DNA of 7,073 nucleotides from Candidatus Fermentibacterota bacterium (GTDB lineage: Bacteria; JAFGKV01). Below are positions 179 to 6,890 of the stretch, piece by piece. The stretch covers positions 1 through 7,073 of the forward strand of contig JAUXFG010000183.1 of assembly GCA_030620115.1 (NCBI GenBank). Reading direction: 5' to 3'. The position numbers and the translations under genes were made by a program. The notes beneath the pieces were generated by a model, which ran no database searches, was not told the origin of the DNA, and saw only the letters and a list, made by a program, of their open reading frames with translations. Within the stretch, counting starts at the first letter, position 1; the number at the start of each line of letters is the position of its first letter.

Positions 179-287
179 TTCGAGGCGAAGTTGTCCGGCT
201 GACCTCTGGCGATTGCGGCCGGAGGCCGACTTAGGAGACATGGTGACATGTTCTACTGCACGAGATGGTGGGCAGTGAATGCGGGAT

Positions 288-292
288 AGGAG
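288..292 (+). promoter_or_regulatory. Ribosome binding site deciding the thiL start
   Basis: AGGAG lies 10 nt before the ATG at 303. The earlier in-frame ATG at 279 is preceded only by GGTGGGCAGTGA, which has no clear Shine-Dalgarno match, and the residues it adds are not part of the ThiL family. The start at 303 is therefore preferred. Confidence 0.6.
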
Positions 293-302
293 ATCACACT
301 CG

Positions 303-1358
303 ATGCCGGGACTGCCGGCATGGGATCTGGATGGTGAGAGGGTCTCGGACGTGGGAGAGGATGGCCTTCTTGACCTCATCTTTCAGGAGCTTTCTCCGCC
401 CCATTCTGGAGTACGGATAGCCGCAGGTGATGACGCTGCCAGCATTCGGGTCCCCCGAGGCAATGATCTCCTTGCCACCTGCGATAGCCAGATAGAAGGC
501 GTCCATTTCAGGAAGCAGTGGCTGACCCCGAGGGAACTGGGTTCCCGAGCGTCCAATGTCAATCTCAGTGACTTGGCAGCCATGGGTGCCAGCCCATACT
601 GCGCCTTGCTGAATCTCGCATTGGAGAGTCACACACCCGTTGGTGTAGTGCTTGAGCTTTTCCGTGGGGCGCTTTCTCAGTTGCGACCTGCCGGCGCATC
701 CATCATTGGAGGAAACCTATCACGCTCGGAGTGCGGCCTCAGCGTTGATATGACTCTGATGGGTATATGTCGTTCCGGCATGGCGGTCAAGAGGAGTGGA
801 GCTGCTGAGGGAGATGCGGTCTATGTCTCGGGCTATCCCGGCATGGCCGGCGCCTGCGTGGGCCTTCTCGAGCGTGGACTTGCAGTCCCTTCACCCCAGC
901 TTCTCGGGGCATTCAAAGCTCCTGAACCACGGATCTCCTTAGGACGGAAACTCGCTCGCAAGATGCTTGCTACGGCTATGATCGATATCTCCGACGGACT
1001 TGCATGCGATCTAAATCGTCTAGCATTGGCCAGCGCGGTTCGAATACGGCTTGAAGAAGAGCTAGTCCCCCTGGGGCAGGGGCTGGAGAGCGCGGCGCTC
1101 TCTCTGGGATTGGATCCTATGAGGTGCATCCTTGGCCCTTCAGAGGATTATGAGCTTATCTTCACCATCAGGCCCGAACATGAGGCAAGGCTTCTTCGGA
1201 TGGCGGAGCAGGGTGAGTTCGGTGTTCACCTCACCAGGATTGGGTATTGCGCGACCGGTGAACCAGGATTGGAGAGAAGCGCATGCTTTGGGGATCCTGT
1301 TGGGTGGGATCATTACCGAGGGGATCCCCGGGGGATTTCCGTGTCAACGATGGAGTGA
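303..1358 (+). CDS. thiL: Thiamine-monophosphate kinase ThiL
   Basis: ThiL phosphorylates thiamine monophosphate with ATP to make thiamine diphosphate, the last step of cofactor synthesis, in the cytoplasm. From the ATG at 303 the product is 351 residues, close to the usual 320-350. Family motifs appear in order: GDDAA (about 42-46), EGVHF (65-69), SDLAAMGASP (89-98), GGNLSRS (136-142), DISDGL (228-233), SEDYEL (280-285) and GWDH near the C-terminus (334-337). The Asp-rich GDDAA and DISDGL segments bind Mg-ATP in this PurM-like fold. The gene looks intact. An alternative ATG at 279 would add eight residues but has a poorer ribosome site. It is first in the operon, and its stop is 5 nt before the yjbQ ATG. 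No TPP riboswitch is visible in its leader. The assignment is very secure; the start is less so. Confidence 0.96.
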   Translation: MPGLPAWDLDGERVSDVGEDGLLDLIFQELSPPHSGVRIAAGDDAASIRVPRGNDLLATCDSQIEGVHFRKQWLTPRELGSRASNVNLSDLAAMGASPYCALLNLALESHTPVGVVLELFRGALSQLRPAGASIIGGNLSRSECGLSVDMTLMGICRSGMAVKRSGAAEGDAVYVSGYPGMAGACVGLLERGLAVPSPQLLGAFKAPEPRISLGRKLARKMLATAMIDISDGLACDLNRLALASAVRIRLEEELVPLGQGLESAALSLGLDPMRCILGPSEDYELIFTIRPEHEARLLRMAEQGEFGVHLTRIGYCATGEPGLERSACFGDPVGWDHYRGDPRGISVSTME

Positions 1359-1363
1359 ATGTG

Positions 1364-1780
1364 ATGTCAACATATGCCCGGCATACATGTACGATGAGAA
1401 CCACGAGCCGAATCGCCATGACCGATGTCACCTCTCTCATTGAAGCACGGATTCATCAGGAGGGGTTTCATGATGGGTTCTGCCATCTCTTCTGTCCCCA
1501 CACTACCGCTGGTTTGACCATCAACGAGGGTGCGGATGCCGCGGTGGCGCACGACATCCTCGGGGTATTGAATGACCTGGCGCCTGCGTCGCCGCGCTAC
1601 ACTCATGCTGAAGGCAATTCTGACGCGCACATGAAAAGTACTCTTGTGGGCGTGAGTCTTTCGATTCCAGTGGATGCGGGGAGATTGGTCCTTGGGAGAT
1701 GGCAGAGAGTATTCTTCTGTGAGTTCGATGGGCCACGTCAACGTGAGATATGGCTTCGTTTCACTGAGCACCCGAATTGA
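1364..1780 (+). CDS. yjbQ: YjbQ-family protein (secondary thiamine-phosphate synthase, UPF0047)
   Basis: This 138-residue protein has the normal length and signature of the YjbQ/UPF0047 family. CPHTTAGLTINEGAD (44-58) and HAEGNSDAHMKSTLVG (81-96) carry the conserved histidines (H46, H81, H89) thought to bind metal. The end has the typical LGRWQRVFFCEFDGPRQRE block (110-128). Members of the family have a weak thiamine-phosphate synthase activity that can replace ThiE in complementation tests, but their main physiological role is not settled. Being next to thiL supports a thiamine link here. The ATG at 1364 is chosen because GGAG at 1352-1355 is 8 nt upstream and the protein then aligns end to end. 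A longer frame from 1283 would only add residues read out of frame from thiL. The stop overlaps the tatC start. Confidence 0.93.
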   Translation: MSTYARHTCTMRTTSRIAMTDVTSLIEARIHQEGFHDGFCHLFCPHTTAGLTINEGADAAVAHDILGVLNDLAPASPRYTHAEGNSDAHMKSTLVGVSLSIPVDAGRLVLGRWQRVFFCEFDGPRQREIWLRFTEHPN

Positions 1781-2532
1781 GCGATAGACGGGATCCACCG
1801 GGCGCACGAGGCGCGGATGCCGATGGCGCCCGCTCCGAGATGCCGTTTCTCGATCACTTGGAGGAATTCCGCCGTCGGATTCTGTGGAGTTTGGGTACGC
1901 TTTTTCTTGCAGCACTTGGTTCCTATGTCGTCTCAGGGAGATTGCTCACCATCTTGGTGAGGGCAGCGGGGCAGCTCCAGGCCATCAGTCCCCTGGAGAC
2001 CCTGACCGTGCGGATCAAGATCTCCGTGGTCGCCGGTTTGGTGATCGCACTTCCGGTGATTCTCTATCAGGGATGGCGATTTGTCGCTCCGGGGCTCCTG
2101 CAGAACGAGAAACGTATCGCCTCGGGTCTGATTGTTTCTTCAACCCTCTGTTTTATGTGTGGCGGCATTTTTTCTTTTCTTGTGGTGGGTCCCGCTTCGT
2201 TGCGGGTCTTGGAGGGGTTTGCCACGCCCGAGATAAAGAATGTGTGGAGCGTTTCGAAATATGTCGCGTTCATCCTGAAGCTTATGCTCGCATTCGCCAT
2301 CGTGTTTGAGCTCCCTGTGGCGATATTTTTCCTCAGTAAGCTCGGCGTGGTGACCCCAAAGCTGCTTCGGGCAAAACGGCGGTACGCCATCGTGTTGATA
2401 TTCGTCATGGCGGCAACCATCACCCCACCCGATATGTTCACTCAGATAATGCTCGCAGTTCCCCTTGTTGTGCTGTACGAAGTTGGTATCTTTGTGAGTG
2501 CTGCGGCTCAGCCCAGGCGGAGGAAAACGTGA
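1777..2532 (+). CDS. tatC: Sec-independent protein translocase subunit TatC
   Basis: TatC is the integral membrane receptor that recognises twin-arginine signal peptides of folded proteins. The 251-residue product has the cytoplasmic HLEEFRRR segment (27-34; the usual form is HLxELRxR, so a Leu is Phe here), FVAPGLLQNEKR (102-113) with the conserved Glu at 111, GVVTP (190-194) and TITPPD (214-219) with the conserved Asp. Several hydrophobic segments fit six membrane spans, for example 35-60, 83-99, 114-138, 162-188, 203-216 and 222-243. The upstream choice is TTG at 1777, overlapping the yjbQ stop as TTGA. An ATG at 1840 would give 230 residues starting just before the HLEEF motif and is a real alternative, as neither has a strong Shine-Dalgarno site. 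No tatA or tatB lies nearby. The next gene overlaps by 4 nt. Confidence 0.96.
   Translation: MSDRRDPPGARGADADGARSEMPFLDHLEEFRRRILWSLGTLFLAALGSYVVSGRLLTILVRAAGQLQAISPLETLTVRIKISVVAGLVIALPVILYQGWRFVAPGLLQNEKRIASGLIVSSTLCFMCGGIFSFLVVGPASLRVLEGFATPEIKNVWSVSKYVAFILKLMLAFAIVFELPVAIFFLSKLGVVTPKLLRAKRRYAIVLIFVMAATITPPDMFTQIMLAVPLVVLYEVGIFVSAAAQPRRRKT
2519..2523 (+). promoter_or_regulatory. Ribosome binding site for the polyprenyl synthase, inside tatC
   Basis: GGAGG lies within the last codons of tatC, 5 nt before GTG at 2529 and 14 nt before ATG at 2538. The spacing favours the GTG start, which overlaps the tatC stop as GTGA, a usual arrangement for translational coupling. Confidence 0.65.
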
Positions 2533-3509
2533 GATCAATGGAACTGCTCGAAAATGCGCAAGCTCTCGTCAAGAGGGAACTCGTGTTGACGGACAACGTC
2601 CTCGCACAAGTACGAGCGGAATTCCAAGGTACGCTGCGCTCACTGGGCGATCACGTTCTCAGCGTTTCGGGGAAGCGGTTGCGGCCAACCATACTGCTGC
2701 TTTCGGCAAGGCTCAGAGCACAGTCTCACGGTATGGCGCCCAGAGTTGCCGCGGTGGTGGAACTCATCCATACTGCGACATTGATTCATGATGACAGCAT
2801 TGACGAGGCACAGTTGCGGCGGGGGCGATCGACGGTGAACGTCGAGTGGAATCACCAGGTCGCCACCATGCTGGGGGACACGCTCTATTTACGTGCGTTC
2901 GAGCTACTCACTGAGTTGGGTGAGGATCAGGTCACCGTTCTTCTTGCACGCGCATCGCATACTATGTCTCGCGGTGAGTTGCGCGAGTTTCTATTTCGTG
3001 ACAATCTCATTGAAGAGTCCACCTACTTGGAGTTGATCTGGTCAAAGACGGCTGCCTTCATGGGAGCATGCTGTCATGTCGGCGCGATACTGGGAAGACT
3101 GGACGAAGCCGAATGCCAAGCTATCCGCCAGTATGGAGAGAAGCTTGGGATGGCGTTCCAGATCGTGGATGACATGCTTGACTATTCAGCAAATGCCGAT
3201 CGATTGGGGAAGGAGACGTTGACCGATCTGAGGGAGGGAAAGATGACACTCCCTCTCATCGCGGCCCTGCAATCTTCCGGCAGGGATGGTGATTTCCTGA
3301 AGGAGCAGATCCAACTACTGCGCAGCGGGGAGCTTTCCGGTACAGAGGTTGCCGAGTTTGTAGGCATTCATGGTGGTCTGCACTACGCACGAGACAGGGC
3401 ATTGTCACTGACACAGGATGCCAAGTCATGCCTTTCGGAACTACCGGAATCCGAATCTCGGAGTTCACTTGAGCTGATTGCCGATTATGTGGTCAAACGG
3501 GAGAGGTGA
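2529..3509 (+). CDS. Long-chain polyprenyl diphosphate synthase (IspB/heptaprenyl-type)
   Basis: This trans-prenyltransferase condenses isopentenyl diphosphate onto an allylic diphosphate, most likely making the quinone side chain. The 326-residue all-helical protein has GKRLRP (48-53), the first Asp-rich motif DDSID (88-92) followed by an RRG (97-99), and the second, DDMLD (214-218), preceded by FQIV. LREGKMTLP (235-243) is also typical. The residues just before the first Asp motif (HTATLIH) are small at the chain-length positions, as in IspB, so a long product (C30 or longer) is likely; the exact length cannot be read from sequence. The usual Gln of the helix motif GExxQ is Glu here (GELRE, 149-153), a mild oddity. 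GTG at 2529 is chosen over ATG at 2538 for its ribosome-site spacing. It overlaps tatC by 4 nt; DUF4321 follows after 5 nt. Confidence 0.93.
   Translation: MRSMELLENAQALVKRELVLTDNVLAQVRAEFQGTLRSLGDHVLSVSGKRLRPTILLLSARLRAQSHGMAPRVAAVVELIHTATLIHDDSIDEAQLRRGRSTVNVEWNHQVATMLGDTLYLRAFELLTELGEDQVTVLLARASHTMSRGELREFLFRDNLIEESTYLELIWSKTAAFMGACCHVGAILGRLDEAECQAIRQYGEKLGMAFQIVDDMLDYSANADRLGKETLTDLREGKMTLPLIAALQSSGRDGDFLKEQIQLLRSGELSGTEVAEFVGIHGGLHYARDRALSLTQDAKSCLSELPESESRSSLELIADYVVKRER
3501..3506 (+). promoter_or_regulatory. Ribosome binding site for the DUF4321 gene
   Basis: GAGAGG lies 8 nt before ATG at 3515, within the end of the preceding gene. GTG at 3506 is in frame but overlaps this site, so the ATG is preferred. 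Confidence 0.55.
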
Positions 3510-3514
3510 TAATC

Positions 3515-3781
3515 ATGAGTATTCGTTCGCGCCCCATAGGAATCCTCATTGTGATGCTCGTCGTTGGTTGCGTGCTCGGCAGCCTCTTCGGTGAATTGCT
3601 TGGCGTCATCCTTCCAAAGGGTGTGATTCGTGATTTCTTCGTCACTGGAGTCCGCCCCGGGTTCAACCGGCTCCATGTCGATGTAGGGATTCTGGCATTC
3701 TCCATCGGGTTGAGGATCAAGGTCACGGTGACGAGTGTTCTGGGTATGATGCTCGCGGTCCACATGTTCCGGTGGTATTAA
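3515..3781 (+). CDS. Small membrane protein, DUF4321 family
   Basis: This 88-residue protein matches my memory of the DUF4321 family, whose function is unknown. The N-terminal segment (about 8-32) is a Gly-rich hydrophobic helix ending in GSLFGELLG (22-30), followed by the family-like LPKGVIRDFF (33-42). A less hydrophobic loop with FNRLHVDVG (50-58) leads to a second hydrophobic region (about 59-66) and a C-terminal helix (about 71-85), and the protein ends with aromatic and basic residues (FRWY). Length and layout fit the family. It sits between the polyprenyl synthase and lysS, with 5 nt before it and 11 nt after it, so it is made as part of the operon; the position gives no function. The family call rests on motif recall, not on a search. 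Confidence 0.78.
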   Translation: MSIRSRPIGILIVMLVVGCVLGSLFGELLGVILPKGVIRDFFVTGVRPGFNRLHVDVGILAFSIGLRIKVTVTSVLGMMLAVHMFRWY

Positions 3782-3785
3782 GGGA
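3780..3785 (+). promoter_or_regulatory. Ribosome binding site deciding the lysS start
   Basis: AAGGGA lies 7 nt before ATG at 3793, a good spacing, and overlaps the DUF4321 stop. An in-frame GTG at 3772 would add seven residues but lies upstream of this site inside DUF4321, so the ATG is preferred. Confidence 0.65.
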
Positions 3786-3792
3786 ACGATTC

Positions 3793-5328
3793 ATGGGACT
3801 CGAAGAAACCATCTCCGCGAACATCAAAAAGGCTCAGAACCTTCGGGAGCAAGGCATAGAGCCGTATCCGATTCGGACCCCTGAAACAAGAGCGATTGCC
3901 GAGGTGAAGACGCGGTTCGAAGAGAATCCTTTGGACGATGTGGTAGGTGTGGCCGGGCGGTTGACCGGACGAAGAGCACATGGCAAGGTGGCTTTTGGAG
4001 ATATTCAGGACGAAACGGGGAAGATCCAGCTCTTCATGAGGTCTCAGGAGATTGGCCCGGAGGGTATGGATCTGTTCAATGGACTTGACTTGGGTGATTG
4101 GGTATGGGCTCGTGGACCGGTGGTCAGGACTCGACGAGGAGAAATCAGTGTGGATGTGAGAGAGCTTGTGCTTCTCTCAAAGAGTCTCCGGCCCTTTCCC
4201 GACAAATGGAAAGGCATCGCCGATCCCGAGATTCGGTATCGACAGCGGTATGTGGATCTCATGGTCAATCCCTCCGTGAAGCAGGTTTTCAGAAAGCGCG
4301 CTACAGTGATCGATTCACTCCGCGAACTGCTCCAGCAAAGGGGTTTCCTCGAAGTGGAGACACCGGCATTGCAGCCACTGTACGGCGGCGCAGCGGCACG
4401 GCCATTCGTCACTCACCATCATGTGCTCGACAGCACTCTCTATCTCCGAATCGCTTTGGAGCTTCATCTGAAAAGGCTTTTGGTAGGGGGACTGCGCCGG
4501 GTCTTTGAGATCGGGAAGTGCTTCCGAAATGAGGGGATGGATCGTCTCCATAATCCCGAGTTCACGCTCTTGGAAGCGTATGAGGCCTTCAGCGACTCGG
4601 AAGGCATGATGTCGCTGACAGAGGATCTCATCCGCGCGGCTGCGTTGGCGGCCTGCGGCCGGCTAGACATCGAATACCAGGGTACGCCGATAGATCTTGG
4701 CGCGCAGTTTGAATGTTTATCCATGATCCCGACGCTGAGTGAGAGGCTTTCGCTCGATCCGATGACAGCGCCGCTTGACGATCTCGCCCATGCCTGCCAT
4801 GTTCGCGGTGTGGAAGAGATCCCGGAAAAGGCAGACCGTACCTGGTTTATCGACCGGCTCTTTTCCGTGGCCGTGGAGCCCGAACTGGTTCAGCCCACGT
4901 TTGTCACGGGGCATCCCCTCGACATGTCTCCGCTGGCAAAGTCCGGTGAGGACGATCCGGAACGTGCTTCACGATTCGAGTTGTTCGTGGCGGGCCGGGA
5001 GCTGGTGAACGGCTATTCGGAATTGAACGACCCTGTGAAACAACGGGAAAGGTTGCTCAGACAGCGCCGGAACGAGACATTCGAAGAGCACCTGGTGGAC
5101 GAAGACTTTCTGAGGGCCTTGGAGTATGGCATGCCGCCGGCCGGCGGGTTGGGTCTTGGGGTGGATCGATTGGTCATGCTGCTGACTGATCAACAGAGCA
5201 TCCAGGATGTTATCTTGTTCCCACAGATGAGGCCCGAAGCGGAGAAAGCCAAAGGCGACGTGCCATTGGTTGGTATCGATGCATCGGCACTAGTACCGAT
5301 CCATGTCGATCAGATGAGGAGAGCATAA
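3793..5328 (+). CDS. lysS: Lysyl-tRNA synthetase, class II
   Basis: LysRS attaches lysine to tRNA-Lys using ATP, in the cytoplasm. The 511-residue product has an N-terminal OB-fold anticodon-binding domain (about 50-134) and a class II catalytic core. Motif 1 is around VFRKRATVIDSLRELL (165-180). The GGAAARPF stretch (198-205) follows. Motif 2 runs from FEIGKCFRNEG (238-248) to HNPEFTLLEAYEAF (253-266). RFELFVAGRE (394-403) and the GYSELNDP stretch (407-414) come next, and motif 3 is GLGLGVDRLVMLLT (452-465). The family core ends at ILFPQMRP (474-481), and about 30 further residues form a tail beyond the usual end. ATG at 3793 is chosen from the AAGGGA ribosome site. The stop shares its last base with the start of the lipoprotein gene (TAATG). 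The gene is complete and the assignment secure. Confidence 0.98.
   Translation: MGLEETISANIKKAQNLREQGIEPYPIRTPETRAIAEVKTRFEENPLDDVVGVAGRLTGRRAHGKVAFGDIQDETGKIQLFMRSQEIGPEGMDLFNGLDLGDWVWARGPVVRTRRGEISVDVRELVLLSKSLRPFPDKWKGIADPEIRYRQRYVDLMVNPSVKQVFRKRATVIDSLRELLQQRGFLEVETPALQPLYGGAAARPFVTHHHVLDSTLYLRIALELHLKRLLVGGLRRVFEIGKCFRNEGMDRLHNPEFTLLEAYEAFSDSEGMMSLTEDLIRAAALAACGRLDIEYQGTPIDLGAQFECLSMIPTLSERLSLDPMTAPLDDLAHACHVRGVEEIPEKADRTWFIDRLFSVAVEPELVQPTFVTGHPLDMSPLAKSGEDDPERASRFELFVAGRELVNGYSELNDPVKQRERLLRQRRNETFEEHLVDEDFLRALEYGMPPAGGLGLGVDRLVMLLTDQQSIQDVILFPQMRPEAEKAKGDVPLVGIDASALVPIHVDQMRRA
5317..5321 (+). promoter_or_regulatory. Ribosome binding site for the lipoprotein gene
   Basis: AGGAG at the 3' end of lysS is 6 nt before the ATG at 5328. 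This is the strongest site in the operon by match and spacing, so the last gene can be translated efficiently despite overlapping lysS by one base. Confidence 0.65.
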
Positions 5329-6698
5329 TGATCCGTCTGGTTCTTCCTATTATTGTCATCTTTGCGCTCATGACCGCATGTGGTGATGACACATCCGGTG
5401 TCACGCCACCTCGTCTCTATCTTGAACGAACGGCGGTTCAGCTTTCCGTGGCGCAGTATGAAGAGACAACTGAATCGTTGCGCATGGTGAATGAAGGAGA
5501 GGGAGTTCTGGAGATCATCGGTATCGCCATCGATCTTGATTGGATCAGCGTATCCGATACGAGTTTTCAGATCGATGCCGGCCACAGCAAGACGCTCCTG
5601 ATCACTGCAAATCCTCTCTTTCTGTCGGAAGGCTTTTACTCTGCCAAGCTCACATTCTCGACAAATGACCCCGATCATAAGAATGTATTGATTCCGGTGG
5701 AAGTGACTGTCTTGCACGGGACCTACTCACCAATCACCATAACTCCCCTCCAGGTGACCCTCACCCTCGAACCGGGGGGGAACACGCAACAGGAATTGAC
5801 CGCAGAGAATCCTGGGACCGTGGCGAGACAGATCACCGGGATTCAGCCGAGCTGCCAGTGGGCCAGTGCCGAGCCAACTGCATTCACGCTCCAGCCCGGT
5901 GAACAGAGACAGATCGTATTGACAGTGACGGCGGAAGACCTTGCCGAGGGCCAGTATTCAGGTGCCCTCACCATTGCCACGGATGATCCAGTCGTCCCAT
6001 TCATCACGGTTACGGTTCAACTGACCGTGACCACGTCAGTCACCGTTACCCGCGTGGTGGTTGCCGAGGAATTCACGGGTACGTGGTGCACACATTGTCC
6101 CGACGCCATGCGGGGGCTGCATGAGTTGAGGGCAGTGGTAGGGGAAGATCGGTTGGCGGCGGTGGCGTTTCATATTCAGGACGACTTCGATATTGCAGAG
6201 AACAGCGATAGGGCGGCATACTATGATGTTTCCAGTGTCCCGGATGTGCGTATTGACGGTGTTCTCCAGCATTTGGGCGGGAATGATGGGAATCCTGTTG
6301 ACTACACGTCATACTATGATGAGCGCGTGCTTGTGCCCCCCTCACTCTCTATAGAGCTGGTCTTGGATCAGTATGAGGCGGCTACCGGACTGGGGCAGGT
6401 GACCGCTGGTCTGGGGAATATCTCAGACAGCACGGTGGACTTCAATCTTCTGGTCTATCTGACCGGCACTGACTCCAGTTACTCCTGGCAGGGATTTGAT
6501 CACCTCTACTTCACGGTGCTGCAGCACGTGGCGGGGAGCCAGGGGGCTCCACTTTCCTTGGCTCCAGGCGAAGATGCGCAAAGAACCTATGACTTCCTTG
6601 TGCCGAACTCGTGGCGAGGCCGGGAATGTGAATTGATCGCCATGGCCCAGGATAAAACGAGCAAAGAGATCCACCAGGGAGCTATCCTCAAGTTCTAA
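5328..6698 (+). CDS. Lipoprotein with two Ig-like repeats and an Omp28/thioredoxin-like CxxC domain
   Basis: This 456-residue protein has an export signal with a hydrophobic core (2-14) ending in a lipobox-like LMTAC, so Cys18 is probably lipidated; Met at -3 is not ideal. No twin arginine is present, so Sec export is likely. Two similar beta-rich repeats follow (about 29-129 and 137-236), each ending in a matching block: EGFYSAKLTFSTNDP (101-115) and EGQYSGALTIATDDP (207-221). A thioredoxin-like domain then carries EEFTGTWCTHCPDA (247-260) with CxxC at C254/C257, and VPDVRIDG (304-311) with the probable cis-Pro at 305. A beta-rich C-terminal part (about 340-456) resembles Omp28-type proteins. 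It probably acts outside the cytoplasmic membrane; redox activity or a purely structural role are both possible. Stop TAA is followed in frame by TAG. Confidence 0.85.
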   Translation: MIRLVLPIIVIFALMTACGDDTSGVTPPRLYLERTAVQLSVAQYEETTESLRMVNEGEGVLEIIGIAIDLDWISVSDTSFQIDAGHSKTLLITANPLFLSEGFYSAKLTFSTNDPDHKNVLIPVEVTVLHGTYSPITITPLQVTLTLEPGGNTQQELTAENPGTVARQITGIQPSCQWASAEPTAFTLQPGEQRQIVLTVTAEDLAEGQYSGALTIATDDPVVPFITVTVQLTVTTSVTVTRVVVAEEFTGTWCTHCPDAMRGLHELRAVVGEDRLAAVAFHIQDDFDIAENSDRAAYYDVSSVPDVRIDGVLQHLGGNDGNPVDYTSYYDERVLVPPSLSIELVLDQYEAATGLGQVTAGLGNISDSTVDFNLLVYLTGTDSSYSWQGFDHLYFTVLQHVAGSQGAPLSLAPGEDAQRTYDFLVPNSWRGRECELIAMAQDKTSKEIHQGAILKF

Positions 6699-6758: not shown

Positions 6759-6768
6759 GTGGGCACGG

Positions 6769-6784
6769 TCCGCCAGCTGGCGGA
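6769..6784. repeat. Perfect 16-bp palindrome
   Basis: TCCGCCAGCTGGCGGA is identical to its reverse complement. The arms can extend outward: GGGCA (6761-6765) with TGCTC (6785-6789), if CGG at 6766-6768 is bulged. Read on the minus strand the block begins GTAGGAG (6793 down to 6787), which recalls the GTRG head of REP elements. A fully self-complementary site could be a dimeric protein-binding site or a mobile palindromic element. Confidence 0.8.
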
Positions 6785-6801
6785 TGCTCCTACATGGGAC
6801 A

Positions 6802-6815
6802 GAATGTACACATTC
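6802..6815. repeat. Inverted repeat GAATGT/ACATTC
   Basis: GAATGT (6802-6807) is the exact complement of ACATTC (6810-6815) with only AC between, so it would form a cruciform rather than a stable RNA hairpin. Flanking GGG (6796-6798) and CCC (6815-6817) hint at a longer imperfect repeat. Confidence 0.55.
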
Positions 6816-6818
6816 CCT

Positions 6819-6848
6819 CAGGAGGGCCATGCTCCGTCATGGCCGCCG
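6819..6848 (+). repeat. REP-like hairpin element, copy A
   Basis: A GGAG head (6821-6824) is followed by a perfect 7-bp stem, GGCCATG (6825-6831) with CATGGCC (6838-6844), around the loop CTCCGT. The loop CTCC can alternatively pair with the GGAG head. It matches copy B on the opposite strand in head and loop while the stem differs. It looks like an interspersed palindromic element of the REP/BIME kind. Confidence 0.7.
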
Positions 6849-6860
6849 TTTGAGCCAATA

Positions 6861-6890
6861 CCGCGGATGCGCCGGAGCGCGTCCCTCCAG
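6861..6890 (-). repeat. REP-like hairpin element, copy B (inverted)
   Basis: On the minus strand it reads GGAG, then stem GGACGCGC with GCGCATCC (8 bp, one G-T wobble) around the loop TCCG. Plus-strand arms are 6865-6872 and 6877-6884. Aligned with copy A without gaps, 20 of 30 positions agree; most mismatches are in the stem and preserve pairing. The two copies face each other across 12 bases. Confidence 0.7.

Follow-up and report, generated by a model that had tools for sequence, protein, structure and literature searches.

An inverted pair of GGAG-tagged REP hairpins in a Candidatus Fermentibacterota genome and its probable cognate RAYT

The stretch of DNA analyzed here (7,073 nucleotides, hereafter the window) forms contig 89 in the draft genome (4.10 Mb, 98% complete) of a Candidatus Fermentibacterota bacterium. 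Near its right end the window carries an inverted pair of repetitive extragenic palindromes (REPs), a type A and a type B copy of the same family, whose 5' tags face outward. Copy A (6821..6846, plus strand) comprises the tag GGAG (6821-6824), a stem formed by 6825-6831 with 6838-6844, a six-base loop CTCCGT (6832-6837) and the tail GC. Copy B (6863..6888, minus strand) has its GGAG tag at 6888-6885, followed by the stem GGACGCG/CGCATCC, the loop CTCCGG and the tail GC; the spacer between the two copies (6847..6862) is 16 bp long. The 7-bp stem of either copy opens with GG and closes with CC. The original prediction, made from the sequence alone, had described two facing copies that align over 30 bases without gaps and with 20 identities, and both the sites and the identities (counted by hand) were confirmed. 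Its statement that the stems differ but still pair was correct for copy A, whose stem GGCCATG/CATGGCC pairs at 7/7 positions, but only partly for copy B, where a C-A mismatch at bases 6881/6868 leaves 6/7 pairs; the type B consensus across the genome, CGCGTCC, pairs fully.

A third element, absent from the original prediction, lies upstream of copy A. This is a GTAG-tagged hairpin-bulge-hairpin, GTAGGAGCATCCGCCAGCTGGCGGACCGTGCCC (6761..6793, minus strand), placed tail-to-tail with copy A, with the tags inside and 27 bp from the copy A tag. The 27-bp linker between them (6794..6820) resembles, by eye, the linkers found in the repeated arrays that surround the REP-associated tyrosine transposase (RAYT) gene described below. 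The GTAGGAGCATCCGCCAGCTGGCGGACCGTGCCC repeat represents a second REP family, with approximately 20 exact GTAG-tagged copies in the source genome. GGAG-tagged type B copies share their inner hairpin with this GTAG family, and the two families therefore look mosaic. An Rfam search of the window gave no match. The rest of the window is occupied by an ordinary row of genes (279-6698) for an AIR-synthase-like protein, a UPF0047 protein, TatC, a polyprenyl synthase, a DUF4321 protein, a class II lysyl-tRNA synthetase and a secreted-looking protein with a HYDIN-type immunoglobulin (Ig) domain. A G-rich dispersed repeat, GATGAAGCCCCCGATGATGTTTTGGGGGAGGAGGGGAAGTT, sits at the contig end (6985-7073) and the opposite end (1-180) is similarly G-rich; this repeat has 17 matches in the source genome, one of them near the RAYT arrays at C160:20271.

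Analysis of the fixed part of the hairpin, GGAGGGNNNNGCTCCGNCNNNNCCGC, revealed two matches in the window, compared with a mean of 0.04 and never two in 200 dinucleotide shuffles. Since this pattern was derived from copies A and B themselves, the genome-wide count is the real test. At up to 2 mismatches the source genome contained 171 matches, compared with 4 for the reversed control, so the family extends well beyond the two copies in the window. Folding of the whole pair and of single copies gave only a modest gain over shuffles (energy z-scores), and the case thus depends on the family rather than on energy.

Copies were classified in 41 sampled stretches (564 kb, chosen for holding copies), which together contained 107 copies. 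Type A stems were GGCCATG or GGCCACG and the type B stem was GGACGCG. Neighboring copies formed 31 head-head pairs (tags outside), 18 tail-tail pairs and 3 head-tail pairs, and every one of the 31 head-head pairs joined an A with a B. Head-head spacers measured 14, 16 or 17 bp, with a single exception of 7 bp, and nearly all tail-tail spacers were 28 bp. These data bear out the predicted layout of REPs in bacterial interspersed mosaic elements (BIMEs), the copies here being placed mainly as inverted pairs with outside tags. The prediction of a REP-type tetranucleotide head was upheld in that GGAG is fixed; the head itself, however, matches no tag of a REP class in the open-access texts consulted. 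Position 2 of the tag was G in 100% of 105 copies, which places the family outside the GTAG superfamily as defined by a GTAG or GTGG tag, and the base at -1 was T in 97% of copies, giving an extended tag TGGAG. Only 3/107 copies (~2/55 clusters) fell inside codon-scored genes, although such genes cover 73% of the sampled DNA, a comparison of positions within copy-holding stretches only; the expected intergenic bias was thus present and the copies do not lie mainly in coding sequence. A coding test based on open reading frames (ORFs), which placed 53/107 copies in ORFs, was discarded in favor of codon scoring because the arrays create shadow ORFs. High copy number, extragenic location, conserved palindromic structure and inverted pairs or regular arrays are the features by which REPs and their paired forms (REPINs, or BIMEs) are recognized, and all were found here.

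We also examined whether the stems covary, since the original prediction had read the differences between A and B as compensating changes and these two copies are insufficient for that purpose. Among matches to the fixed part that were not filtered for a stem, 81 of the 136 listed showed Watson-Crick pairing throughout the four free stem positions. Covariation was then scored on 36 representative variants, 33 of which were picked by eye from the match list, a set that leans towards paired stems. In this set 98% of cells were paired (a figure that leans high from the selection) and 5/7 stem pairs showed changes on both sides. There were 68 double-change cells compared with 18.7 ± 3.6 in shuffles, and the covariation score was 0.696 compared with 0.125 for shuffled sequences and no more than 0.150 for slid controls. 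The controls were built from the same sequences, so the covariation signal is not due to selection alone, and the claim of compensating changes holds at the level of the family. Pairing between the tag GGAG and the loop CTCC was rejected as well, given that the same tag also goes with the loops TTTCAT, GTCTCT and CTTCGT.

The original prediction proposed a search for a Y1-transposase gene flanked by the same hairpin. PF01797 identified four Y1 genes in the source genome; these were rejected as the sole RAYT candidates, as no family hairpin lay within 1.5 kb of any of them. In Pelagicoccus mobilis, a 156-aa Y1 gene is located exactly between two GGAG pairs, and when its protein was used as the query a 47%-identical gene was found in the source genome (contig 160, 20652-21131). 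This gene is intact (159 aa), lies well inside a 30.9-kb contig and was missed by PF01797 with a score of 18.7 against the 23-bit cut-off. A and B copies alternate in arrays to either side of it, with a period of ~97 bp, and the proposed check thus came out positive. Its best solved match is E. coli TnpA-REP (PDB 4er8, E = 5e-6). Based on the 4er8 alignment, with numbering according to PMC6006769 and PMC8266576, the protein has an HVH motif and retains the equivalents of W94, Q95, R104, Y115 and N119, while E100 is replaced by D and H101 by T. The gene thus has the marks of a RAYT (TnpA-REP), namely HUH and tyrosine motifs, relationship to TnpA-REP and its own REPs on either side. The source genome also contains a second RAYT, of the E. 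coli type (WQHRYWEHVLR; G000:C200:12754-13173), which is flanked by four GTAGGTCGGGTTA...TAACCCGAC hairpins and is a separate GTAG REP/RAYT system. GTAG repeats (GTAGGGGAGGGCG...) lie all around a RAYT (G001:C207) in a genome of the same bacterial family, and this family thus hosts ordinary GTAG systems too.

Hairpins with the same head, loop and tail on other stems were found, among the matches listed, in at least Verrucomicrobia, Opitutales, Kiritimatiellae, Lentisphaerae, Planctomycetes, a Desulfobacterales metagenome-assembled genome (MAG) and others. RAYT homologues with ~43-60% identity are bracketed by GGAG hairpins in other phyla, P. mobilis being one example, and such loci occur in Verrucomicrobiota, Kiritimatiellae, Lentisphaerae and a Desulfobacterales MAG. 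We compared 113 RAYT sequences with their flanks from dozens of genomes, calling tags from perfect hairpins in the flanks, with G-N-R-G tags only and at least 2 hairpins per call. A clade of 40 RAYTs (support of 99 in the Shimodaira-Hasegawa-like approximate likelihood ratio test, SH-aLRT) includes the contig 160 gene, and every callable tag in the clade is GGAG, apart from a single locus where the hairpins are mixed. GGAG is likewise the tag of another, weaker group, marked by the motif FDR. Tag type was clustered on the RAYT tree, with 5 changes compared with 22.5 in shuffles. Residue 101 was T, R or S at 35/38 GGAG loci and H at 27/30 GTAG/GTGG loci. H101, sometimes R, is among the reported tag contacts (PMC6006769). 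The number of tag changes on the tree is 3 when starred branches are counted and 5 when all branches are, which is too few for a confident test of the correlation between residue 101 and tag. A simple rule equating T at position 101 with GGAG was dropped, since R occurs often, H is retained at three GGAG loci and R is present at two GTAG loci. Residue 101 is therefore put forward as a candidate for tag reading from sequence comparison, and not as its determinant.

Taken together, these data make it very probable that the pair in the window is a REPIN/BIME unit of a family spread by its cognate RAYT at contig 160, 20652-21131. By analogy with TnpA-REP of E. coli, Stenotrophomonas and Marinomonas, we infer that the REP would fold when its strand is single, for instance on the lagging-strand template, and that the RAYT would recognize the tag and the conserved hairpin, cut between C and T of a nearby CT dinucleotide through a 5'-phosphotyrosine bond, and join the element to a new intergenic site. 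Cutting by TnpA-REP at this dinucleotide depends on the tag, whose third and fourth bases are thought to select CT (PMC8266576). GGAG keeps AG at positions 3 and 4, so cutting at CT is predicted. The second base is expected to be important for the protein, and the G that takes the place of T there would be recognized by an altered site of the RAYT. Several observations weigh against cognate spread. A RAYT of the GGAG branch was not detectable in several copy-rich genomes; two genomes, G076 (~378 copies) and G066 (194), have no Y1 gene, whereas some genomes with fewer copies have one. Two genomes of the same bacterial family have no RAYT of the contig 160 type, and copies are few there. Cleavage and transposition were not observed, and no empty site turned up, although none was searched for. 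The missing RAYTs are likely explained by assembly loss at repeats, since these draft genomes have copies close to many of their contig ends; real loss may also have occurred.

Two other accounts of the family are improbable but merit discussion. The hairpins could persist because they serve a function in RNA (transcription end, protection of mRNA 3' ends or attenuation), the link to a RAYT being incidental; they are intergenic, lie ~120 bp after a stop codon in the window and could fold as RNA, and such functions have been reported for REPs (PMC6006769). However, neither hairpin in the window is followed by a T run, and the genes around copies are arranged as in intergenic regions generally (28 tandem, 7 convergent, 6 divergent). 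Nor would an RNA role account for the asymmetric tag, for the arrays at the RAYT gene, or for the fact that tag and RAYT branch go together repeatedly in different phyla. Slightly less probable again is that the REPs are passengers in a larger element, similar to a miniature inverted-repeat transposable element (MITE), spread by another transposase. One subgroup does have this appearance: GGCCACG/TTTCAT pairs with the 14-bp spacer (stretches L159, L164, L173, L177, L183, L188 and L190) keep similar flanks, gaattcatccgct...atcatacaaagcaaaagggggagaaggttggatgc, over at least ~35 bp on each side, which indicates copying of a unit no shorter than 135 bp. In contrast, other subgroups, including the set ending gatgat...agagat, diverge ~6-7 bp from the tags, the flanks of the window copy are of mixed origin, and the repeats at the RAYT locus are bare. 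Chance likeness of two G+C-rich inverted repeats, for which the frequency of hairpins in G+C-rich DNA and the modest single-copy energy z-scores might speak, is refuted by the shuffles (0/200 with two matches) and the genome-wide count (171 compared with 4) and can be set aside with virtual certainty. Spread by the contig 160 RAYT is the explanation we prefer.

Comparison with described systems places the GGAG family beside three groups. The tags described in the open-access texts consulted are GTAG, GTGG, the degenerate forms GYAG, GYRG, GTRG and GTMG, CGTC and CnGA (including PMC3733652 and PMC6006769). GGAG does not occur in those of the consulted texts that deal with RAYTs or tyrosine transposases. 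GT[AG]G is held to be a nearly invariable tag of REPs, and this motif was used in systematic REP searches around RAYTs (PMC6006769), to which a GGAG branch would be invisible. It is quite possible, and we propose it tentatively, that GGAG REPs and RAYTs form an undescribed, old and very common branch, centered on the Planctomycetes-Verrucomicrobia-Chlamydiae (PVC) group but also present in Eisenbacteria and others, and that the tag and the H101 equivalent changed together in this branch. If so, the branch would explain a short repeat that is very common in the genomes of the PVC group and would offer a natural specificity switch for working out the tag-reading code of RAYTs; with ~40 related RAYTs that combine a changed tag with a changed tag-contact residue, tag recognition and the choice of cleavage site would be directly testable.

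The GTAG REPs and RAYTs of E. coli, Stenotrophomonas maltophilia and Marinomonas (PMC8266576, PMC6006769, PMC2817692) have in common with the family described here inverted pairs or arrays, intergenic placement and an HUH/Y transposase that is flanked by its own repeats and keeps the W94, Q95, R104 and Y115 equivalents. In contrast to those systems, the tag here is GGAG and not GTAG or GTGG, the H101 equivalent is T in the source genome, and the 7-bp stem and the 6-nt loop CTCCGT are kept across phyla. The GTAG and CGTC superfamilies of Di Nocera et al. 2013 (PMC3733652), which include families of Opitutus terrae and Rhodopirellula baltica, likewise consist of short tagged hairpins that form head-head dimers and heterodimers and are present in the PVC group; GGAG lies outside their tag variants (GYAG, GYRG, GTRG, GTMG and GTGG), a separation that for the O. 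terrae families is drawn from the text only. The Class 3 TnpA-Y1 proteins of Planctomycetes and Acidobacteria, with CnGA hairpins (PMC6006769), resemble it in having a tag other than GTAG and numerous copies in related phyla, but their tag is a different one and their Y motif is Y----Q, whereas the GGAG RAYT proteins align with E. coli TnpA-REP. Thus, a REP family with its RAYT is an already known kind of system, of which the GGAG branch seems to be new as a described variant.
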